From assembly GCA_020201275.1 (NCBI GenBank), contig JAIVHB010000029.1, positions 1 to 33,263 on the forward strand: a stretch of 33,263 nucleotides of DNA, written 5' to 3'. Origin of the DNA: Rhodothermaceae bacterium (GTDB lineage: Bacteria > Bacteroidota > Rhodothermia > Balneolales > Cyclonatronaceae). Shown piece after piece: positions 4,528-31,935 of the stretch (position 1 is its first letter; each line of letters opens with the position of its first letter). The position numbers were made by a program, and so were the translations under genes. Under the pieces are notes generated by a model. It saw only the letters and a program-made list of their open reading frames with translations, made no database searches and was not told where the DNA came from.

Positions 4528-4962
4528 ATGAATAAAACCGGACCCATTATTATTATTGAAGATGACACAGATGACCAACTTATCTTGAATGAAATCTTCG
4601 AAGAACTGAATTACAAGAATCAGCTAATTTTTTTTGGAGACAGCGAAGAAGCTTTAGATTTTCTGGAACACACAGATGTTGAACCCTTCCTTGTGTTGTC
4701 CGATATAAATATGCCAAAATTAAATGGCATGGAGTTACGAGAGAAGATTCATAATAATGAAGACATGAGGCGAAAATCTATTCCCTACCTTTTCTTTTCA
4801 ACAAGTGCGGAGCAACAACATGTGATTGACGCTTATTCCAGGTCTGTTCAGGGGTTTTTTGTTAAACCGAATGATTATGAAAAGATTAAAAATACGATTA
4901 TAAAAATTGTAGAATACTGGCAAGAGTGTGAATCGCCTAATTATATCAAAGTTGCTCAATAG
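4528..4962 (+). CDS. Rcp1-type single-domain response regulator
   Basis: 144 residues, one CheY-like receiver domain and no output domain. The acidic pocket is E11-D12-D13, the phosphoacceptor is D59 in LSDINMP, the switch residue is S91 or T92, and the conserved lysine is K113 in FFVKPND. The pattern of extra acidic residues after the pocket (DDTDDQ) and the short C-terminal helix place it with the Rcp1-like regulators that serve bacteriophytochromes and hybrid kinases in Bacteroidota and cyanobacteria. It has no adjacent kinase. Two regulators of the same subfamily sit around 27.6-31.9 kb beside a large kinase, so a phosphorelay partner elsewhere is plausible but not shown. A TATATTTG at 4448-4455 matches the Bacteroidota -7 element (TAnnTTTG), but no clear -33 element is visible. 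Confidence 0.9.
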   Translation: MNKTGPIIIIEDDTDDQLILNEIFEELNYKNQLIFFGDSEEALDFLEHTDVEPFLVLSDINMPKLNGMELREKIHNNEDMRRKSIPYLFFSTSAEQQHVIDAYSRSVQGFFVKPNDYEKIKNTIIKIVEYWQECESPNYIKVAQ

Positions 4963-5176
4963 ACCGGTTATTACATAAAGGGGATGTAATCAGGGCAGTA
5001 TACTCCTTCTATCTATTTTATCAGCATCAACTGTCTTGAGAGAGTCTTTGAACCGGATTGAAGCCTGTAGATATACGTTTTTTCATGCCTCACATCGAGC
5101 TCCACGGCAGGTGTAACCAAAAATTTCATAAAAATTAATCCAGACAGGTATTGTATGGCTGGGAATTTTGTATTAG

Positions 5177-5197
5177 CTTTGAAACTGAAAGTACTTT
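5177..5197 (+). promoter_or_regulatory. Shared operator/promoter element, copy 1
   Basis: CTTTGAAA, three bases, then the perfect palindrome AAAGTACTTT, ending 19 bp before the ATG of the first membrane-protein gene. The same arrangement with identical spacing occurs at 6224-6244 before the second membrane-protein gene. CTTTGAAA is also repeated at 5194-5201, overlapping the palindrome. The likely reader is the winged-helix regulator encoded between the two sites. Function is inferred from repetition, symmetry and position only. Confidence 0.5.
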
Positions 5198-5216
5198 GAA
5201 ATAAAAAACAACTTGA

Positions 5217-5843
5217 ATGGAAAAAGAACAGGATTACAGTAAGGATATTGCCGAGATTCGCTCAATGATGGAGCGTTCTTCCAAATTTCTGTCGCTGTCG
5301 GGATGGGCAGGCATCATGGCCGGTATGTATGCCCTGGCAGGAGCCGGCATTGCCTACACCGTTTTTAACTTTAATCCTGATGCCATCGATTACAGTGCCA
5401 TAGATCCGGGAAGTGCAACATCAGCACTGCCAAAGGTTATGTTAACAGGCCTTTTGGTGCTGATACTGGCCCTGGTTACAGCCATTGTGTTATCCCGCAA
5501 GAAGGCTGAACAATGGGGTGAAAACATTTGGAATGCCACATCCAGAAGGCTGTTGGCGAGTATGGCTGTTCCTCTGGCAGCAGGCGGCCTTTTCATTTTG
5601 ATTATCATCTCAAAAGGCCTGCTGGGGCTTATTGCACCCTTAACGCTTCTGTTCTATGGCCTGGCTTTATATAATGCAAGCAAATTCACCATTGATGAAG
5701 TGAAGTTTTTGGGCATGGTTCAGATTGGGTTGGGATTGGCAGCCACCTGGTTTATTGAATATGGCTTACTCCTTTGGGCGATCGGTTTTGGAGTTGTCCA
5801 TATAGTTTATGGAATGTACATGTATTTCAGGTATGAGCGGTGA
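5217..5843 (+). CDS. Polytopic inner-membrane protein co-transcribed with a winged-helix regulator
   Basis: 208 residues. A charged cytoplasmic-looking N-terminus of about 25 residues (DIAEIRSMMERSSKF) is followed by about six hydrophobic helices, in three pairs at roughly 28-55, 76-95 and 108-205. No enzymatic or transport motif is recognisable. Its stop overlaps the GTG start of the winged-helix gene by four bases (GTGA), which indicates translational coupling. Small membrane proteins paired with this class of regulator are common in Bacteroidota, with no established function that I know of. The upstream region holds the 21-bp element described at 5177. A sensing or envelope-stress role would be a guess. 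Confidence 0.75.
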   Translation: MEKEQDYSKDIAEIRSMMERSSKFLSLSGWAGIMAGMYALAGAGIAYTVFNFNPDAIDYSAIDPGSATSALPKVMLTGLLVLILALVTAIVLSRKKAEQWGENIWNATSRRLLASMAVPLAAGGLFILIIISKGLLGLIAPLTLLFYGLALYNASKFTIDEVKFLGMVQIGLGLAATWFIEYGLLLWAIGFGVVHIVYGMYMYFRYER

Positions 5844-6139
5844 AAGTTTCAATCGATGATTTACACAAAGCGTTCGGAAGCCGCGTAAGACTTGGCATTA
5901 TGTCGGCTTTGGCAGTGAACGACAAGCTCGATTTCACCTCACTGAAGGAATATCTTGATGTGACCGATGGCAATTTGGCAAGCCACATTAAAGCGCTCGA
6001 AAAAGAAGCGTTTATTGGCGTTGAAAAGTCATTTGTCGACCGGAAACCCAATACGAAATATTTCATGACCAAAGTGGGCAAAAAAGCGTTTGACGATCAT
6101 CTTAATGCACTGGAAATCCTAATAAAATCAAACAGATGA
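5840..6139 (+). CDS. Winged helix-turn-helix transcriptional regulator (PF13601-like)
   Basis: 99 residues, a single winged-helix DNA-binding domain. The characteristic sequence of the family is present: LHKAFGSRVRLGIMSAL, then DFTSLKEYLDVTDGNLASH (recognition helix around residues 38-52), then the wing with FVDRKPNTKYFMTKVGKKAF. Family members are MarR/ArsR/PadR-like local repressors. GTG at 5840 is chosen because it yields the normal family length and overlaps the preceding stop (GTGA). No ligand-binding domain is present, so the signal must come through the DNA-binding domain or a partner, possibly the membrane protein translated just before it. Two copies of a palindromic element, one before its own operon and one before the next gene, suggest autoregulation and control of the neighbour. 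Confidence 0.85.
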   Translation: MKVSIDDLHKAFGSRVRLGIMSALAVNDKLDFTSLKEYLDVTDGNLASHIKALEKEAFIGVEKSFVDRKPNTKYFMTKVGKKAFDDHLNALEILIKSNR

Positions 6140-6223
6140 AAATTCACGAGTCCAGGTTCGGCCGCGGCGTAAGCTGAAACGCAGGGATATTAACGAAGCT
6201 GCTTAAATTTTTTTCGTCACAAA

Positions 6224-6244
6224 CTTTGAAAAACAAAGTACTTT
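6224..6244 (+). promoter_or_regulatory. Shared operator/promoter element, copy 2
   Basis: CTTTGAAA, three bases, AAAGTACTTT: the same layout as at 5177-5197. Here the left part also forms its own inverted repeat, ACTTTG (6223-6228) with CAAAGT (6234-6239) around AAAAA, so overlapping dyads are present. It ends 34 bp before the ATG at 6279. A likely binding site for the winged-helix protein encoded immediately upstream. Confidence 0.5.
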
Positions 6245-6278
6245 TAATAATCAATCAAAACAGACAGAGGTAACCATC

Positions 6279-6839
6279 ATGAATACAGATAGAAAATTAT
6301 ATCAATCCATCGCCGGCCTGGCATTTATAACAGGGGTGATATTGCTTATTCCTCTTATCGCAATGCAGTACACCGGTGAAGTGAACTGGGACCTGGCCGA
6401 TTTCATTGTGATGGGTACTCTCATATTCGGAACCGGACTCACATACAAGCTGATTACAAGGAAGTCCGGCGAAACCAAATACCGGGTCGCAATAGGATTT
6501 GCACTTGCAATAGGATTTTTCCTTATCTGGGCGAACCTTGCCGTTGGCATCATCGGGTCGGAAAATAATCCGATTAACCTGGTGTATTTCGGGGTGCTTG
6601 CTGTTGGAATCATTGCTGCTTTCATTGCCCGCTTTCAATCACACAAAATGGCAATTGTTATGTTCGCAATGGCGATCGCCCTGGCATTGGTCGCGGTTAG
6701 TGCAGTTATCGCCGGAATGCACAGCTCGCCGGGCAGTTCCTTGCCCGAAATCATGGGAGTGAATGGGTTCTTCATTCTGATGTGTGTAATATCGGCCTTG
6801 CTGTTTCGGCATGCCGCGCAGGATCAGGTGAAACCATAG
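6279..6839 (+). CDS. Polytopic membrane protein of unknown function
   Basis: 186 residues, mostly hydrophobic, with about six predicted helices: residues 8-28, 38-58, 67-90, 98-115, 123-145 and 158-176. A GAGG ribosome-binding site lies just upstream of the ATG. No conserved catalytic or transport motif is recognised. It is separated from the winged-helix gene by 139 bp, but the gap holds a second copy of the 21-bp element found before the first membrane-protein gene, so both units are probably under one regulator. It is not a close copy of the 208-residue membrane protein upstream. Confidence 0.7.
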   Translation: MNTDRKLYQSIAGLAFITGVILLIPLIAMQYTGEVNWDLADFIVMGTLIFGTGLTYKLITRKSGETKYRVAIGFALAIGFFLIWANLAVGIIGSENNPINLVYFGVLAVGIIAAFIARFQSHKMAIVMFAMAIALALVAVSAVIAGMHSSPGSSLPEIMGVNGFFILMCVISALLFRHAAQDQVKP

Positions 6840-8144: not shown

Positions 8145-9560
8145 ATGAAAACAGGGATGTTCATTTTTCTAATATTGCTGATTGCGTTTGAAGCCGATGC
8201 GCAGGTATCGGAGGAATGGGTTGCAAGGTCGATACAGGCTGGAGGTGCCTACTCAATGGTTTTAGATAGCGAAGGTAATGCATATGTGACCGGCACAAGC
8301 CAGACGGACATTTTTACAATCAAATACAATCCCGTGGGTGAGCCGGTGTGGACAGCAAGATACAATGGTCCGGCTAATGGAAACGACTATGCCAGAGCAA
8401 TAACAGTAGACCAGACAGGAAATGTGTACGTGACCGGACTTAGTTACAGAACCTTTGTCGGGTATCAATTACTCTATGACTACGCTACAATCAAATACGA
8501 TTCCGAAGGCGTGCAGCAGTGGGTGCAAAGATATAAAGGCCCTGCAAACGGCAATAATTACGCCATGGCCATTGCAACCGATCCGGATGGTAATGTATAT
8601 GTAACAGGTTCTAGCACTGGTGAAAACGGTGAAACTGACTACGCAACGGTAAAATACAATTCAGCTGGTGCTGAACAGTGGGTGCAAAGATATAGTGGCC
8701 CGGGCAACAATACTGATTATGCCAACTCAATAGCCGTAGATGAGATCGGTAATGTATATGTAACCGGAGGGCGCAGTTATGGAACAGGTGGCAACAGGGA
8801 GTTAGCAACAATAAAGTATAACACACAGGGTGAACAGCAATGGCTGACAGTTTACAATGAAGGGGGATTTTATACCGGTGAGGCTGTCTCTGTTAAACTC
8901 GACCAAATGGGAAATATCTACATTACCGGAAACTCGTGGGATAATTATGCGACAATCAAATATAATCCAGCTGGTGAACAGCAATGGGTACATGTAGATA
9001 ATACCGGTATCCATAAAAATTATGTCAGTGCAATGGTTGTAGATAGCCTTGGCAATATTTATTTAACCGGATCTATAAGAAATGGAAGTGAAACAGGTAA
9101 TGATTATTACACCAATAAAATCAATTCAAACGGCATAAAAGAGTGGACGGCTATATATAATGGTCCGGCGAGCAGAGAAGATGTTGCAAAGTCAATTGCA
9201 GTGGATGAATTCGGGAGTGTATATGTTACAGGTTTTAGCTGGGGAATCGAAACTTTCGATGATTATGCCACAATAAAATATAGTTCTGATGGTGTTCAGC
9301 AGTGGGTACAAAGATATAATGGACCAGCTAACGATGGAGATATCGCAAATTCAATTGCCGTAGATGGTTCAGGAAATGTATTTGTGACAGGTGAAAGCCA
9401 GGGAGATTATCTAACCATTAAATATTCACAGGAAAAAGAGAAAGAACCACCTATAAATTTAACCTATGATCTCGGGACACACTCATTAAAATGGACCAGG
9501 TCTCCCTCCGGAGGAGTGATCAATCAATTGGTTTTAAAACAGGAGTATGATCGCATTTAA
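8145..9560 (+). CDS. Secreted SBBP-repeat beta-propeller protein, N-terminal part of a split T9SS cargo gene
   Basis: 471 residues. A Sec signal peptide (hydrophobic FIFLILLIAF, cleavage near EADAQ) is followed by eight SBBP repeats of about 50 residues, each with a core such as DGNVYVTGSS, FGSVYVTGFS or TGNVYVTGLS, preceded by a YATIKYN/W-V-Q-RYNGPAN segment. The repeats are close enough that DNA-level repeats occur (for example around 8517, 8677 and 9300). SBBP propellers are surface or secreted binding modules. After the last blade a short stretch PPINLTYDLG..SLKW looks like the start of a fibronectin-like linker, then the frame stops at 9558-9560. The next gene overlaps by 14 bp, lacks a signal peptide and ends in a T9SS sorting domain; this one has the signal and no sorting domain. 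Together they look like one protein of about 1,110 residues interrupted by a +1 frameshift. Confidence 0.8.
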   Translation: MKTGMFIFLILLIAFEADAQVSEEWVARSIQAGGAYSMVLDSEGNAYVTGTSQTDIFTIKYNPVGEPVWTARYNGPANGNDYARAITVDQTGNVYVTGLSYRTFVGYQLLYDYATIKYDSEGVQQWVQRYKGPANGNNYAMAIATDPDGNVYVTGSSTGENGETDYATVKYNSAGAEQWVQRYSGPGNNTDYANSIAVDEIGNVYVTGGRSYGTGGNRELATIKYNTQGEQQWLTVYNEGGFYTGEAVSVKLDQMGNIYITGNSWDNYATIKYNPAGEQQWVHVDNTGIHKNYVSAMVVDSLGNIYLTGSIRNGSETGNDYYTNKINSNGIKEWTAIYNGPASREDVAKSIAVDEFGSVYVTGFSWGIETFDDYATIKYSSDGVQQWVQRYNGPANDGDIANSIAVDGSGNVFVTGESQGDYLTIKYSQEKEKEPPINLTYDLGTHSLKWTRSPSGGVINQLVLKQEYDRI

Positions 9561-11478
9561 CTTTGACAGGGATGCCTTTAAATTGATCAGGAACAGTGAG
9601 AACTGGCCGCAATCCTGGTGGAGCCAGTTCAATTATAATGATCCGTTTTCATATTCGCCCCTGTTGTTATTTGCCGGAAGACCCGACAGTGCTTATGTAG
9701 ACTGGCCTCTTTATACTGAGATAATAGGCAAGGAACAGGCTTACTTAAGCACCACGCTGAATATTGCATATCTGACTCCCGCTTTGCAGTGGAGGTGGAC
9801 ATCGGGGCCGTTTGAAGGTGCATGTGCAGGTTTTTCAATCTCATCGTTGCTCAGTTTTTACAAAAACCCGGACTATCTTTCTCAGTTTCCTTATATGGTC
9901 AATAAAGATCCCGGGTCAATACCTAAAACCGATAACAATGCAAGAAAAGTGATAAATCACCTGCAAAACACACAAATCTTTACTCAACCTGCAGAACTTG
10001 TACATGAACCTGCAGATTCGGCCAATCGAAGACCGGACTATGTTTTGAAGCGGTTAACAGAGATTTTTTCGGATTATGAGAGCAGTACATTGGATCAATA
10101 TATATCATTAAAAACCAGGAGCGGCTATCACGCAGTACTACCGGTTGGGATCAATAAGCCTGACTTTACCCAAAATAGATATGACGTGATGGTTTATGAC
10201 AGCAATCACCCCGAGGAATACAGCTACATTCTGATCTTTACTGAGAAGAATACCTGGATTCACCAGGATTTTTCGGAACAGTCTGCCGGTATTGCCCTGC
10301 GTGGTCCGGTTGCTTCCAGGCTTGGCATTTTAAGCTTTGATTCCGACTACGCCATACCGGAAAATTCATCCGTCATGTCCGATCACAATCAGGCATCATC
10401 AATCAGCAGAACGAAAAATCCATCAGCCAAGTCCACTGCCAATATGGTTGCGTCCACAACCAGAACGATATATACATCGGGATCAAGTTCTGTATCTGTT
10501 CTCGTCGACAATGAAACCCTGGCGGGTTACGACATAGTGAACAACACACTTGTATCATTCGATAATTCGATTGTTGAAGCAACGGATGGCATCCTGAGAG
10601 CACCGAAAGGATATAAATTGCCCCTGGGTGAAACCGGAGTACTCTTTACGGATCAGATTGAAGGCTCTTCGGCTGGCCTGATGTTCCAGTCATCCGGAGG
10701 TAACTATTATTTGGCTGAAAGAACAGACGGTGCCGGTCTGGATGAGACAGAGGCTATAGAGATCAATGAAGAGGGATTCACCTACCTGAACAATGATGAG
10801 GTTAGCAAAACAATCAGTCTTATTTCGTTTTTTGAAGACAACAGCCAGAGCAAGCTGGCCAGGCTCAGCGCGATTGATATCGGAGGTAATGAAGAAATCA
10901 GCCTCAACCTTGAGCAGGATGAGGTAAACCTGAAAAACACAGGCGGATCTAAAACCTACAGCATCACTCTATTGTATGCAACCTCAGAGCAGCAACTTGA
11001 ATTTAATACCGTTTCAGTTCCACTGGCGGGAAACACAACACATAGCATTCAGCCTGACTGGGAAGCGTTAAGCCAATCAACATTAGAGATATACATTGAT
11101 AATGGCAATAACGGAACCATTGATGATACATTGACTGTAGTGAATCAGACAACGTCAATAGAGAGGGACCGGGAATCACCGTCCCTGCCGGAGACCTACA
11201 ACCTCGCGCAGAACTACCCGAACCCGTTCAATCCGTCCACAGTAATCAGCTATCAGTTGCCTGCTGCTGGTCAGGTAACGATAAGGGTATATGACTTCCT
11301 TGGCAGAGAGGTAGCATTGCTTGTCAATGAATTCAAAGCTGCCGGCCGGTATGAGGTCACATTTGACGGATCGAACCTGGCCAGTGGGGTATACCTGTAC
11401 AGTATAGAGGCCGTCAATGCATCGGGAAGCAGGGGTGGCATATTTAATCAAACCAGAAAGATGCTGCTGATTAAATAA
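9547..11478 (+). CDS. Papain-like/C39-like domain with T9SS C-terminal sorting domain, second part of the split gene
   Basis: 643 residues. The N-terminal third contains a probable cysteine-peptidase fold: SGPFEGACAGFSISSLL with C93 as the nucleophile candidate, SGYHAVLPVG with H195, and MVYDSNHP with D218/N220, in the Cys-His-Asp/Asn order of papain-like enzymes. The middle (about 250-540) is beta-rich and unrecognised. Residues 546-643 are a type A T9SS sorting domain: NYPNPFNPSTVISY, then TIRVYDFLGREV, then GVYLYSIEA and a terminal basic KMLLIK. T9SS cargo needs an N-terminal Sec signal, which this frame lacks but the overlapping upstream frame has. AGGAG sits directly against the ATG at 9547, too close for a normal ribosome-binding site. 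Protease activity is inferred from motif order only. Confidence 0.75.
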   Translation: MIAFNFDRDAFKLIRNSENWPQSWWSQFNYNDPFSYSPLLLFAGRPDSAYVDWPLYTEIIGKEQAYLSTTLNIAYLTPALQWRWTSGPFEGACAGFSISSLLSFYKNPDYLSQFPYMVNKDPGSIPKTDNNARKVINHLQNTQIFTQPAELVHEPADSANRRPDYVLKRLTEIFSDYESSTLDQYISLKTRSGYHAVLPVGINKPDFTQNRYDVMVYDSNHPEEYSYILIFTEKNTWIHQDFSEQSAGIALRGPVASRLGILSFDSDYAIPENSSVMSDHNQASSISRTKNPSAKSTANMVASTTRTIYTSGSSSVSVLVDNETLAGYDIVNNTLVSFDNSIVEATDGILRAPKGYKLPLGETGVLFTDQIEGSSAGLMFQSSGGNYYLAERTDGAGLDETEAIEINEEGFTYLNNDEVSKTISLISFFEDNSQSKLARLSAIDIGGNEEISLNLEQDEVNLKNTGGSKTYSITLLYATSEQQLEFNTVSVPLAGNTTHSIQPDWEALSQSTLEIYIDNGNNGTIDDTLTVVNQTTSIERDRESPSLPETYNLAQNYPNPFNPSTVISYQLPAAGQVTIRVYDFLGREVALLVNEFKAAGRYEVTFDGSNLASGVYLYSIEAVNASGSRGGIFNQTRKMLLIK

Positions 11479-20261: not shown

Positions 20262-21398
20262 ATGATGTACCAGAGGAAAGATATATCAATAAACCGGAAT
20301 CACGCGAACCTGGTCGCAGTATTCACCCTACTGATCTGCAGTGTTCTCCTGCCGGGCTGTGATATTGATACTGCAAGTGTTCGAAATGGCAGTAGTGCCA
20401 CATTCAATATCGAAAGCGGGTGGTTGGTACCGGAACATGAAGTCATAAACGGTGGACCAGGGAAAGATGGCATCCCCCCGATTGAAGTGCCTGACTACAT
20501 GAGTGCAGCTCAAGTAAATTTTATTCCTGATGAACGCCGTGTTCTCGGGATCATCATAAGCGGTGAGGTAATCGCCTATCCGCATCAGATATTAGATTGG
20601 CATGAGATAGTGAATGATCCCAGTAATATAACGATTACCTATTGCCCGCTTACAGCTACAGGTGTTGCCTGGGATGCCCGTCAGGGACCCGGCTTTGGTA
20701 CATCCGGACTACTCTTTCGAAATAATTTAATTGCCTATGACCGCAAAACGGAAAGTTTATGGTCACAAATGCGGATGCGTTCGATAAATGGAGAGCACAT
20801 GGGGGCCAGTGTAGAGCCTTTAAATATTCTTGATACTACCTGGAAGACGTGGAAAGCCATGTATCCCGATTCAAAAGTACTTTCCACAAAAACCGGATAC
20901 GACAGGGATTACCAGTCTTACGCGTACGGAAAAAGTTTTGATGAAAAAGATGATCTCATACTTTTCCCAACCAAAAACCGGGACGACACCCGATTAAATG
21001 CCAAGGCGAGGGTTCACGGTATTTTTACGGATGAAGCACTTGAAGAAAATTCTAGAGTCAGAATTTATGAGATAAGCAAACTAAGTAACGAAATCGAAGT
21101 AATACACGATGAAATTGATGGTGAAAAGTATGTAATTGTCGGTAGCAGCGAACTTGATTTTGCTATTGCCTACAAATCTGTGATACACGATGGCACTGAA
21201 TTATTATTTGAAGCGGTTTTGAATGAGCTTCCGGTAGTGATGAAAGATCAGCAAGGTAATTTATGGAGTGTGTTTGGGGAAGCTGTGGATGGGCCCCGCC
21301 AAGGGGAACGTCTGCGTCAGGCAAAATCATATTCCGGTTTCTGGTATGCATTCAGGGATATGTTTACACTGCCCGAGATATATTCGCTGGATAAATAA
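20262..21398 (+). CDS. DUF3179 lipoprotein, copy 2
   Basis: 378 residues (two adjacent ATGs, 20262 and 20265). The signal ends in a lipobox LLPGC, lipid-anchor C33. DUF3179 signatures: GKDGIPPIEVP, VIAYPHQILDWHEIVND, TYCPLTATG with C128 (TGC, Cys not Sec), FGTSGLLFRNNLIAYDRKT and LWSQM, then NLWSVFGEAVDGPRQGERL and FWYAFRDMF. It is clearly related to the copy at 17430 but diverged along its whole length, so the duplication is old or the copies were acquired separately. Its promoter region (20055-20261) is shared with the divergent thioredoxin gene. Function unknown. Confidence 0.85.
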   Translation: MMYQRKDISINRNHANLVAVFTLLICSVLLPGCDIDTASVRNGSSATFNIESGWLVPEHEVINGGPGKDGIPPIEVPDYMSAAQVNFIPDERRVLGIIISGEVIAYPHQILDWHEIVNDPSNITITYCPLTATGVAWDARQGPGFGTSGLLFRNNLIAYDRKTESLWSQMRMRSINGEHMGASVEPLNILDTTWKTWKAMYPDSKVLSTKTGYDRDYQSYAYGKSFDEKDDLILFPTKNRDDTRLNAKARVHGIFTDEALEENSRVRIYEISKLSNEIEVIHDEIDGEKYVIVGSSELDFAIAYKSVIHDGTELLFEAVLNELPVVMKDQQGNLWSVFGEAVDGPRQGERLRQAKSYSGFWYAFRDMFTLPEIYSLDK

Positions 21399-27569: not shown

Positions 27570-28022
27570 CTATAATTTGAGCACAAAATTTGACTTGACA
27601 AAATCTGAATTCCGGTTTAAATGAGCAGCAGATAAAGATTTTTTCAATACTACTTTAAGTTCACTATAGGTAGCCGGTTTGGTGATGTAAATATTGGCTC
27701 CATGAGAAAATGTATCATCGATATCTTCTTTAGACGAAGACGTAGAGTAGATTGCAATCGATATATCGCTGTACTTCTCATGGTTTCTGATCTCATTCAG
27801 GCATTCTATACCGTTCATATTCGGCATATTGAGATCCAGAAAGATAATATGGGGGAGCGGGTTATTTTCGTTTGTCAGAAAATCCATCAGCTGTTTGCCA
27901 TCAATCACCATACTGACGTTGATATCTTTATCTATCTCATTCAGGATCTCTTTGAAAATAAGCCTGTCGTCCTCATCATCGTCGGTTAGAAGAACGCGAA
28001 ATGGAGTTTTTTGACTGTTCAT
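27570..28022 (-). CDS. Rcp1-type response regulator, last gene of the sensory operon
   Basis: 150 residues, a single receiver domain: acidic residues D14-D15-D16, phosphoacceptor D63 in FLDLNMPNMNG, switch T94 and K115 in YITKPAT. The tail after the last helix is about 20 residues and ends hydrophobic (FVKSNFVLKL). Its ATG overlaps the stop of the kinase gene (TAATG), so translation is coupled and it is the natural phosphorylation target of that kinase. It resembles the regulator that begins the operon (31465-31935) and the separate one at 4528, suggesting duplication within a family of Rcp1-like proteins. Confidence 0.93.
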   Translation of the reverse strand: MNSQKTPFRVLLTDDDEDDRLIFKEILNEIDKDINVSMVIDGKQLMDFLTNENNPLPHIIFLDLNMPNMNGIECLNEIRNHEKYSDISIAIYSTSSSKEDIDDTFSHGANIYITKPATYSELKVVLKKSLSAAHLNRNSDFVKSNFVLKL

Positions 28023-31000
28023 TAATCCACCGGTGTTTGAGCCTCTGCAGGCATATAAATATCAAATGTGGTTCCTTTGTTCGGGGTACTGGCCACAAAT
28101 ATTTCCCCATTATGATGGGTCACAATTTTCTTCACAGTTGCCAGCCCGATTCCCGTACCCGGATATTCATCTTTTGAGTGGAGTTTTTGGAATACCTCGA
28201 ATATTTTTTCATTGTATTTTGCATCAAAACCGATTCCGTTATCAGAAACTGAAATATGGCAATACATTTGATTCGGAGACAGGTCTTTCACTTTCAGTTC
28301 ACTCCCATTTACAATACGGCTTTTGATCTTTATGTGAGGTTTTTTTCCGGGTTTTGAAAATTTGAGCGCATTGCTGACAAGATTGTACATCAGCTGCCGG
28401 AACTGAAAGACAATAACATTTGCCACACACATTTCTTGCAGCTCAATAGTGGCTTGTTTTTCCTTAATATCGTCGTTGAAGTTTGCTAAAACCTCTTCAG
28501 TAATCGTACCCAGATCTACGGGTATAAACGTTCTCTCCGACGTATTGAGGCGTGAAAAAGCGAGCAGATCATCTATAAGCTTCTGCATCCGTTTTGCAGA
28601 ACGCTGCATAACAGTGAAATAGGTTTTGCCCTTATCGGAAAGGTTTTGATTCTCTTTTTCGAGTACAAGGTCTGCAAAGGTTTGAATTTTTCGCAGAGGC
28701 GCCTGCAAATCGTGGCTGGATATATAGGTAAAAGCTTCGAGCTCTTTATTCATTTCCACCAACTCCTTGTTCATATGACGGAGTTCTTCAATAGCACTTT
28801 TTAACTCAACAGTCCGTTCTTCTATTTTCTCTTCAAGCTCTTTGGTATGTTGTTCCTGAATTTCATGCCGTTTATTTCTCTCTTTTATATGTTCAGTAAT
28901 ATCTTCTACTGACAAGAGGATTAAATTTTCAGATCCATCATCTTTCGCAACTTCCCGTGCATTCAGCAGCAGATGAAGCTCCCCAATTCCGGGGAAGGTA
29001 TGGATGACTTCATAATCAACAACAACAGGATTATCGGGAATAATATCTTCAAGCAGTTTTTTAATTTTTGAAAAGCCCCACATCTTATCACCCAGATTAT
29101 AAATCAGTGACCCAACGGTATCCTTTTCTTTAAGCTTAAATAGTTTGTAAAAAGAATTATTAACGGTTCTTACCCGAAGGTTTTTATCCAGCACGAGAAG
29201 TGGCTCGTGAATATTTGCAACAATAGATTCAGAATAATTTCTTTCAGCTTCGATCTGTTCATTTAAACTGTTCATCTCCTGGTTCAGGACTATCAGCTCT
29301 TCATTAGTGCTCTGAAGTTCCTCCTTACTGGTCTCTAACTCTTCATTTAAACTCTGTAACTCTTCACTGCTGCTCATCAACTCTTCATTGGCACTTTGGA
29401 GCTCTTCGATGGCAACTTCCTGATCCTCCGTAATTTTTCGCATATCCTCCCTGGTGTCAACAATTTCTTGCTCTAATTGCTGAATGCGAAGATCTTTATC
29501 GGTATCCGGCACTGTGCCTTCAGTTTCAGGTCCTTGTACGTCTTTCTCTGAAGTGGTGTCGTGAAACAGTATTAAAAAATGTGGTTCTATAGTATTGGCA
29601 AGCCGAATAGCTTCGATGGAAATGGTATGAAGTTTATCATTTTGCTTGACCGGAATGTTCTCTTTTTTTACTTCTACAGCCCCCTGTTTTACTTTATGCA
29701 GAATATTACGTAGTTCAAAAGCCAGTCCCGGCACTGCCAGTGCCATTAGATTATGGCTCGGTTTCCCTGACGATTGCTCTAAATATGGCCCGGTTTTGCC
29801 CCGGTACTGTACGATATCCATCGCTTCATTAACCACTACACCGGCAGGGGTGTAATTTTTGAGCATATACTCGTCTGCCGTTTTTTGAAAGTCGGGACTC
29901 CTCTTTTCCGCTATTTCTATTTTTTCCCTCTGATTGTAATCAAGTTCCGAAGTCCGGTTAACCACCTGCATGAACTTACTGGATGCATCTTTACGTGAAT
30001 ATATATTATCACTTTTTGCAGCTTCAAAAAAAAGTTCGGGAACGCCATTGGTTGTTTCCGATTTACCGAGAAATAATATCCCGTTTGGGTTCAGAACATA
30101 ATGAAACGTAGTAAGTGCTTTTTTTTGTAAATAGGGTTCAAAATAGATAAGCACATTACGACAGCTTACCAGGTCTATTTTGCCAAATGGAGGGTCTTTT
30201 AAAAAATTATGAACGGCAAAAACGCACATATCCCGAACCTGCCGGGTTACCTGAAAATTTCCATTTGATTTGGTAAAGTACTTCTTTATTCGTTTGTCAG
30301 ATACACCTGTTAATTCAGTCGACGAATAAGTGCCTAATCGAGCTTTGTCAATTGCGGATTCGCTTAAATCAGATGCAAAAATCTGTACTTTTTTTTCGGG
30401 GTTTCCCACAGATCGGGATTCTAATAGTTCTCTGAACAAAATGGCCAGAGAATATGCCTCCTCCCCTGTACTACAACCCGCCACCCATACGCGTAAAGTT
30501 TTATCATCAAGAGTTTTATCTAATAGATCCGGCAAAAATTTGGCAGATAAATTTTCAAATATTTTAGGGTCACGGAAGAATGAGGTTACTGGAATCAGAA
30601 AATCACTATACAGGGTATCCTGCTCCTCTTTTTTTTCTCTTAAATATTCAAGATAGGCAGAAACACTTTTAATTTTGTTAATGGCCATCCTACGAAGGAT
30701 TCTTCTGCGGATTGTGGTCTGTTTGTAATAGGTAAAGTCTGTGCCTTTTCGAACCCGCAACATAGTGATGATTTGCATAAATGCACCTTCCCCATTCCGC
30801 TCCGAGGGGATATCCGAAGCATCCTCGGTTTTAATAAAGTGCTTTATTTCGAGTAATTTTTTCGGGATCTCTTCCGGTCGGAGTACAAAATCAACTACAC
30901 CTGCCTGAATTGCACTGCCGGGCATTCCATTGAAATCTGCCGATTCCACATTCTGCGCGAAGGTAATGCCCCCACCATCTTTTATGGCTCTTAAACCGTT

Positions 31001-31459
31001 GGTACCATCCGATGCCGTACCCGACAGTACCACACCAATGGCATGTGATTCATAAATTTCAGCAAGCGCTGAAAATAAAAGATCAATGGGAAAGATCCGT
31101 TCTGATTTTTTCTTCTCGGGCCGGTCAATGAGCCGTAATTCGCCATTCGATGCCTTCATCAATTTGTCGCTGGGCATCACGTAGACGTGGTCAGACTCCA
31201 ATTTACACTCATCCGACAACTCTGTTACCGGCATGTTTGTCACTTTTTGAAGTATTTCGGGCAGCAGGCTTTCGTGGTCAGGATCTAAATGCTGTACAAA
31301 TAAAAAAGCCATGCCGGGTTCATCCGAAATGGCTCTGAGTAATTCTTTAAAAGCAGATAACCCCCCTGCTGATGCACCAATAGCAACAACAGGAAATGGA
31401 TTTTCAGATTTTTTTCTTTTTTTCTTTTTAGCTGACTGATTCTCTGACTTTTTGGCCAT
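28022..31459 (-). CDS. CheB-CheR-PAS-histidine kinase fusion
   Basis: 1,145 residues from ATG 31459; a TTG at 31468 would overlap the previous stop but is weaker. Order: lysine-rich N-terminus; CheB methylesterase domain with S30 (GASAGG), H57 (VQHLDP) and D151 (TASDGTNG); CheR domain, about 225-490, with the SAM motif AGCSTGEEAYS and SCRNVLIYFEPY; a PAS-like region; a long coiled coil, about 657-740, built from EELQS(L/T)NEEL-type repeats; a PAS domain (745-865); a second coiled coil; HisKA with H916 in YISSHDLQAPLRK; HATPase with N-box SNALKFSKPG, DNGIGF and GTGIGLATVKK. All catalytic residues are present. Such fusions occur without flagella or chemoreceptors and couple an unknown signal to Rcp1-like regulators. 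Here it lies between two of them in one operon. Confidence 0.93.
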   Translation of the reverse strand: MAKKSENQSAKKKKRKKSENPFPVVAIGASAGGLSAFKELLRAISDEPGMAFLFVQHLDPDHESLLPEILQKVTNMPVTELSDECKLESDHVYVMPSDKLMKASNGELRLIDRPEKKKSERIFPIDLLFSALAEIYESHAIGVVLSGTASDGTNGLRAIKDGGGITFAQNVESADFNGMPGSAIQAGVVDFVLRPEEIPKKLLEIKHFIKTEDASDIPSERNGEGAFMQIITMLRVRKGTDFTYYKQTTIRRRILRRMAINKIKSVSAYLEYLREKKEEQDTLYSDFLIPVTSFFRDPKIFENLSAKFLPDLLDKTLDDKTLRVWVAGCSTGEEAYSLAILFRELLESRSVGNPEKKVQIFASDLSESAIDKARLGTYSSTELTGVSDKRIKKYFTKSNGNFQVTRQVRDMCVFAVHNFLKDPPFGKIDLVSCRNVLIYFEPYLQKKALTTFHYVLNPNGILFLGKSETTNGVPELFFEAAKSDNIYSRKDASSKFMQVVNRTSELDYNQREKIEIAEKRSPDFQKTADEYMLKNYTPAGVVVNEAMDIVQYRGKTGPYLEQSSGKPSHNLMALAVPGLAFELRNILHKVKQGAVEVKKENIPVKQNDKLHTISIEAIRLANTIEPHFLILFHDTTSEKDVQGPETEGTVPDTDKDLRIQQLEQEIVDTREDMRKITEDQEVAIEELQSANEELMSSSEELQSLNEELETSKEELQSTNEELIVLNQEMNSLNEQIEAERNYSESIVANIHEPLLVLDKNLRVRTVNNSFYKLFKLKEKDTVGSLIYNLGDKMWGFSKIKKLLEDIIPDNPVVVDYEVIHTFPGIGELHLLLNAREVAKDDGSENLILLSVEDITEHIKERNKRHEIQEQHTKELEEKIEERTVELKSAIEELRHMNKELVEMNKELEAFTYISSHDLQAPLRKIQTFADLVLEKENQNLSDKGKTYFTVMQRSAKRMQKLIDDLLAFSRLNTSERTFIPVDLGTITEEVLANFNDDIKEKQATIELQEMCVANVIVFQFRQLMYNLVSNALKFSKPGKKPHIKIKSRIVNGSELKVKDLSPNQMYCHISVSDNGIGFDAKYNEKIFEVFQKLHSKDEYPGTGIGLATVKKIVTHHNGEIFVASTPNKGTTFDIYMPAEAQTPVD

Positions 31460-31464
31460 TTTAT

Positions 31465-31935
31465 TCAATCTGTAGTTAGCATAAAGCTCTCTTTACCCGG
31501 AAGATCCAAATCCTTATCTGCTATTATTTTAAGTGATTTGTACATAAGCACTTTAAGATCCCAAAAATTTGCCGGTTTTCGAATATAATAGTGTGCCGCA
31601 TCTTTAAAAACCTGCTTTATCATTTCATTATTAGTAGCAGTTGAAAAAATTATTACGGGCAAATCCTGCAATTTTGTGTTTCTCTTTATTTCGCCTAACG
31701 CTGCAAATCCGTTTTTTCGGGGCATATTCAGATCAAGAAAAAGAGCATCAGGAAGCCTGGTTTTTTTTCTGAGCCATTCCATAAGTTCATCACCGTTACT
31801 GAAAGTAGTGAGTTTAACAGATACCGGCAATTCGTCTATGGCCTCTTGAAACAGAAGTCGATCGTCATCATCATCTTCAGCCAGAATTATGTTTAATTTA
31901 CGACTGATCGGCTTGAAATCTTTTGCATTTTCCAT
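31465..31935 (-). CDS. Rcp1-type response regulator, first gene of the sensory operon
   Basis: 156 residues, one receiver domain. The acidic pocket lies in AEDDDDDR (E20-D21-D22), the phosphoacceptor is D68 in FLDLNMPRKNG, the switch is S98/T99 and the lysine is K120 in YYIRKPAN. An N-terminal extension of about 13 residues precedes the domain. It is followed after five bases by the CheB-CheR-PAS-HK gene, or overlapped by it if the TTG start is used. No output domain; it probably acts by protein-protein contact or as a phosphate sink next to the second regulator of the operon. Confidence 0.92.
   Translation of the reverse strand: MENAKDFKPISRKLNIILAEDDDDDRLLFQEAIDELPVSVKLTTFSNGDELMEWLRKKTRLPDALFLDLNMPRKNGFAALGEIKRNTKLQDLPVIIFSTATNNEMIKQVFKDAAHYYIRKPANFWDLKVLMYKSLKIIADKDLDLPGKESFMLTTD

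Follow-up and report, generated by a model that had tools for sequence, protein, structure and literature searches.

Why do two identical copies of a 21-bp element bracket the gene of a winged-helix regulator, each a short distance ahead of a gene for a membrane protein? In the window, by which we mean the whole 33,263-nt stretch of DNA analyzed here, CTTTGAAA-N3-AAAGTACTTT was found exactly at 5177-5197 and at 6224-6244, on the + strand in both cases. The gaps from element to start codon, 19 nt (ATG at 5217) and 34 nt (ATG at 6279), were those described in an earlier sequence-only reading, which had predicted a small regulon composed of the regulator and two unrelated membrane proteins. When up to three mismatches were allowed, the window gave these two matches, both with 0 mismatches, against 0.09 expected from shuffled windows. 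A genome-wide search, one of the checks proposed in the sequence-only reading and performed, like all genome-wide counts reported here, as a pattern search, recovered these two exact copies only in the 3.42-Mb genome; the motif thus does not occur at random positions. A control pattern occurred at background level, and a chance origin of the element is excluded. A third exact AAAGTACTTT was noticed at 20874-20883 of the window, without the first arm and inside the coding region 20262-21398; it is probably fortuitous.

The regulator, a 99-aa protein encoded at 5840-6139 on the + strand with a GTG start codon and a putative recognition helix TDGNLASHIKALE, belongs to the HTH_34 family; it matched the PF13601 profile over positions 1-79 of 80 with an E value of 1.9e-26 and 92.5 bits (cut-off 27). 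The start codon shares bases with the stop codon of the preceding gene, that of the first membrane protein (5217-5843, + strand), in the sequence GTGA, indicating that the two genes constitute one operon, and the same gene order was found in orthologous loci. The regulator gene thus lies between the two copies, as had been noted, but as the second gene of the first membrane-gene operon rather than as a free-standing gene.

Comparison of the orthologous loci, a set of 110 made up of 109 collected loci and the window, gave the consensus ACTTTG-WAWTW-CAAAGT followed by ACTTT. The operator predicted from it is the 17-bp dyad ACTTTG-N5-CAAAGT with a third arm, and not AAAGTACTTT. The latter is a perfect palindrome, as the sequence-only reading stated, but it consists of the right dyad arm and the abutting third ACTTT, and the conserved unit is the dyad that overlaps it. 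The true length of the element is therefore 22 bp. Site 1 occupies 5176-5197 (+ strand), with an imperfect dyad at 5176-5192 (GCTTTG-AAACT-GAAAGT) and the third arm ACTTT at 5193-5197; site 2 occupies 6223-6244 (+ strand), with a perfect dyad at 6223-6239 (ACTTTG-AAAAA-CAAAGT) and the third arm ACTTT at 6240-6244. Arm positions 2-5 and 13-16 were 98-100% invariant at both sites, and the dyad pairs 2:16 to 5:13 were complementary in 98-100% of sites; since sites were found by dyad match, the arm conservation is partly built in, a bias of which the genome pattern scans are free. The arms and the central A8/T10 were symmetric about position 9, which defines a dyad of 17 bp whose half-sites are separated by one helical turn. 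Such a dyad, with a half-site spacing of 11 bp, would be compatible with the binding of a dimer. The third arm, scored as at least 4 of 5 letters, was present in 99 of 103 copies of site 1 and was weaker at site 2 (75 of 88). We rejected AAAGTACTTT as the operator because 13 of the 88 site-2 copies dropped the third arm (no more than 3 of 5 letters matching) and retained the dyad; among loci without the dyad, just one (L120, at site 2) kept AAAGTACTTT.

The element was also kept upstream of the orthologous genes, and the sequence-only reading thus withstood both of its own refutation checks. With a site called at 10 or more of the 12 dyad letters, a site was present before the first membrane gene in 103 of the 110 loci and after the regulator in 88, a good site 2 being missing in the other 22. 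In 36 genomes picked for carrying the regulator, the 22-mer with one mismatch allowed gave 0-4 copies per genome, mostly at the regulator locus. This scarcity and the fixed positions argue against the idea that the copies are a dispersed repeat or a hairpin in RNA (ACUUU...AAAGU). ACTTT and AAAGT could pair as a 5-bp stem, but the arm letters were invariant with no compensatory changes, and the transcript predicted below would start inside the element; we regard this idea as having almost no chance of being correct.

The motif was also linked to the regulator across the phylum. A clear and nearly always single orthologue of the regulator was found in 135 of 396 genomes sampled across Bacteroidota, and the exact pattern in 115. 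Motif and regulator occurred together in 107 genomes, the motif alone in 8, the regulator alone in 28, and neither in 253 (Fisher test, p about 2e-59, a value that overstates the strength of the link because related genomes are not independent). Five of the eight motif-only genomes encoded a diverged regulator, 38-40% identical and below the threshold of the first search, whose gene began some 680-700 bp past the motif, as at the other loci. In these cases the motif had correctly pointed to regulators that escaped the protein search, and once these were counted the regulator was present in 112 of the 115 motif-bearing genomes. The matches in the remaining three (G128, G179 and G392) look like chance. 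When the genome_contigs collection, which spans 84,980 species, was separately scanned for exact matches, at least 94 copies at no fewer than 80 loci were obtained; among the matches listed, 78 loci were labelled Bacteroidota, and of the 94 copies listed, 72 lay at regulator genes, 22 of them preceding the operon and 50 following the regulator. Two listed records from outside Bacteroidota (L192 and L224) had an HTH_34 gene with a TDGNL recognition helix just downstream of the site.

These data bear on whether some other regulator, with its gene elsewhere, reads the sites and simply counts the HTH_34 gene among its targets. Both genes of the operon would be targets under any model, which fits this reading as well. 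However, the site tracks the HTH_34 regulator phylum-wide, the five diverged regulators stood exactly beside the motif, and the two non-Bacteroidota loci with the site also had the TDGNL HTH_34 gene next to it. We consider a regulator encoded elsewhere very unlikely, and retain the HTH_34 protein as the candidate reader.

In the two non-Bacteroidota records, labelled Epsilonproteobacteria (L224, 990-1881) and Candidatus Aminicenantes (L192, 3286-4190, reverse strand), the operator is followed by a membrane protein and then by the HTH_34 gene. Possibly the operator is not confined to Bacteroidota; alternatively, the contigs may be misbinned. In the family of the host, HTH_34 paralogues with a different recognition helix (ASRGNVSVQVSKLE) had no such site. 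A paralogue in the same genome as the window (G000:C187) has a TDGNL helix and no adjoining site, indicating that TDGNL alone does not set specificity. The regulator of the window shares about 80% identity with orthologues from another family (f2), and no close orthologue was found in 10 genomes of the host family, whereas selD on the same contig was closest to the host family (74% versus 60% in f2). The module at 5176-6839 was probably acquired horizontally, or lost in relatives.

Some other features of the window were noted. Overlapping frames at 8145-9560 and 9547-11478 encode a repeat protein and then a product ending in a secretion-type C-terminal sorting domain, and could be one gene with a frameshift. 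Translations at 4528-4962, 27570-28022 and 31465-31935 read as three receiver-only response regulators; a large CheB/CheR-PAS-kinase hybrid, likewise read from its translation (28022-31468), adjoins the latter two.

The position of site 1 relative to a promoter was then considered. The -7 box of the Bacteroidota sigma-A promoter has the consensus TAnnTTTG (PMC9723704, PMC7366714) and is placed at -12 to -5 (PMC9723704). Across the orthologous loci, the first arm of site 1 together with the two preceding bases reads TWACTTTG, close to this consensus, and 84 of the 103 site-1 regions had a TTG 23-25 bp ahead of the dyad, against 2-7 at shifted offsets. The window reads TTG-N20-TAGCTTTG on the + strand, with the predicted -33 element TTG at 5151-5153, at the conserved offset, and the predicted -7 box at 5174-5181, overlapping the first dyad arm. 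Transcription of the operon would start near 5186, inside the dyad of site 1. With both the -7 box and the predicted start inside the dyad, a bound dimer would cover them, a position of the repressor type.

Could the element then be a promoter element only, for sigma-A or an alternative sigma factor? Two features of site 1 fit this reading: TAGCTTTG is a perfect TAnnTTTG, and the TTG stands at the expected distance in most loci. Sigma-A promoters are, however, found in hundreds per genome and not in 0-4 copies, and genomes that lack the regulator have almost no copies of the motif, although they share sigma-A. Dyad symmetry and a second arm are moreover foreign to any sigma consensus, and site 2 retains the dyad without a -33 TTG. 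A promoter element and nothing more is thus a highly improbable reading, and the operator remains preferred.

Site 2 has a different upstream region. A TTG at -25 to -23 was found in none of the 88 site-2 loci, and an uninterrupted AnTm tract of at least 8 bp ended 8 bp before the dyad in 78 of the 88 site-2 regions versus 4 of 103 site-1 regions. In the window this is the A-tract AAATTTTTTT (6205-6214, + strand; AnTm without a TpA step), which ends 8 bp before site 2. The T-run of a terminator was rejected as its source: the tract is often A7T3, and it follows the site even 200 bp from the regulator stop codon. Curvature in phase with the dyad, at a center-to-center distance of about 21.5 bp, is one possible role, and a promoter of the activator type is another. 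A regulator that recruits polymerase to site-2 promoters without a -33 box would be an activator reading the same operator, and the conserved A-tract in place of TTG is what an activator-dependent promoter might have. Against this, the dyad of site 1 lies across the -7 box and start of a promoter with the full consensus, a position typical of a repressor. We judge activation unlikely, while giving it some weight, and repression, which we infer from the arrangement at site 1, to be fairly likely.

The genes that follow the sites differed among lineages. In the window, the presumed target of site 2 is the second membrane protein (6279-6839, + strand), a 186-aa member of the IPLIAMQF...EV.W..DF family whose relatives elsewhere carry the same site. 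The site-2 gene belonged to the 190-aa IPLIAMQF family here and in most of f2, and was in other lineages a 96-aa version of it, CreD, DUF4153, DUF1361, a Coq4-like 150-aa protein, a metallophosphoesterase or a radical SAM protein. Sites away from the locus preceded relatives of the same targets, namely the IPLIAMQF family, the Coq4-like protein and an uncharacterized 414-aa protein, as well as a C92 YiiX-like peptidase, an MpaB-like oxygenase and a serine beta-lactamase-fold protein. IPLIAMQF relatives located away from the regulator still carried the site in L163, L164, L165, L167, L171, L174 and L176. The strongest evidence for the proposed regulon is that the same families accompany the site both in cis and, in a different genome, in trans. 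The predicted regulon of a regulator and two unrelated membrane proteins is thus supported in kind by conserved positions, co-occurrence with the regulator and the same targets elsewhere; other species add CreD, DUF4153, DUF1361, the Coq4-like protein, the C92 peptidase and others.

In two Flavobacterium loci (L198 and L220), a site stood 15-19 bp before the gene of an 830-aa membrane protein, a possible further branch of the regulon; the protein of L198 has a PEP-CTERM-like tail, which we take to mark an exosortase-type cargo. In the host family, ACTTTGACCCACAAAGTAGTTT and its relatives were rejected as regulon sites, lying upstream of what read as mraZ/mraW genes; presumably they resemble the repeated TGGG boxes of MraZ. 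The dyad-like ACTTTGACCCACAAAGT, upstream of mraZ/mraW-like genes in L302, L303 and L304, has the look of MraZ boxes and probably resembles the operator by chance.

The first membrane protein (208 aa) was examined as a partner of the regulator. It was well conserved, and no Pfam or NCBIfam match was obtained at an E value of 0.1. In its AlphaFold2 model, a confident one (mean pLDDT 87.7), an N-terminal helix of residues 2-23 is followed by hydrophobic helices, and a fold search of the model against the PDB gave no match at E <= 0.001. At more distant HTH_34 loci, L007 and L009 in the host family and L192 and L224 from outside the phylum, the regulator gene likewise comes directly after the gene of a multi-pass membrane protein, although a different one. 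Such pairing would thus seem to be widespread among these regulators.

Taken together, we consider it highly probable that the element serves the HTH_34 regulator of 5840-6139 as its operator. What comparison among genomes showed is the site itself, where it lies, that it goes with the regulator and that it recurs before the same families of targets; from this we infer binding by the 99-aa protein. A dimer of the regulator would most likely bind the 17-bp dyad, with half-sites 11 bp, or one helical turn, apart, and the third ACTTT arm would probably help a further subunit to bind. Occupation of site 1 would cover the -7 box and the presumed start of the regulator's own operon and block RNA polymerase, resulting in negative autoregulation. 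At site 2, the regulator would control the second membrane gene from a promoter in which an A-tract replaces the -33 TTG. We suggest tentatively that the system helps to maintain the envelope, and that the first membrane protein, which is co-translated with the regulator, is the probable sensor or partner. It is also conceivable, at somewhat below even chances, that the two proteins signal as a pair, the membrane protein sensing the state of the envelope and holding or releasing the regulator. Bacteroidota would then have a phylum-wide envelope-stress system, a counterpart of HAAS-PadR, whose output would be CreD and several families of unknown function.

This regulon of membrane and cell-envelope genes is apparently undescribed so far: in open PubMed Central papers, we found no description of the motif, PF13601, DUF4153 or CreD in such a Bacteroidetes regulon. 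There are few regulators outside the main model bacteria whose operator can be read so plainly throughout a phylum. One 22-bp site groups, in many genera, the IPLIAMQF family, DUF4153, DUF1361 and the 208-aa partner with CreD, so that membrane proteins of unknown function gain a common regulator and an experimental handle, and Bacteroidota a candidate envelope-response system.

The mechanism, an autoregulated winged-helix regulator, is of an ordinary kind; its breadth is unusual. The closest solved structure to the regulator is that of PH1061 (PDB 1UB9; E 1.8e-9), an HTH_34 protein with a similar recognition helix, TPGNLDSHIRVLE. No operator or regulon of PH1061 was found in the searchable literature; the operator, the membrane partner and the regulon are what the present locus adds. 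CreD, whose loss damages the envelope in Stenotrophomonas (PMC4689548), connects the locus to the CreBC/CreD regulon: the site-2 gene was CreD in many orthologous loci (PF06123, E 6e-153 in L047), and within these loci, the only region viewed, the gene directly before creD was the HTH_34 regulator. The regulator of the CreBC/CreD regulon is, however, a two-component pair, while here it is a one-component winged-helix protein, and in the window site 2 precedes a gene other than creD. Another parallel is offered by the HAAS-PadR dyads, which have been proposed as alternatives to two-component systems (PMC11237479), and by LstR and LltR of Listeria, PadR-type repressors of transmembrane proteins (PMC6624303). 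There, too, a stand-alone winged-helix protein is encoded beside a membrane protein that is multi-pass and begins with a helical segment. As in the HAAS-PadR dyads, the winged-helix and membrane proteins of the window are encoded together by overlapping genes, and probable regulation of the own operon and membrane-protein targets are shared with PadR-type systems. The families differ: no PadR family was among the Pfam matches of the regulator, its sole NCBIfam PadR match scored 15 bits against a cut-off of 101.8, and the 208-aa partner gave no Pfam or NCBIfam match to a HAAS/DUF1700 domain. The locus thus has HTH_34 where those dyads have PadR, and it differs from them further in that genes outside the operon share its operator.
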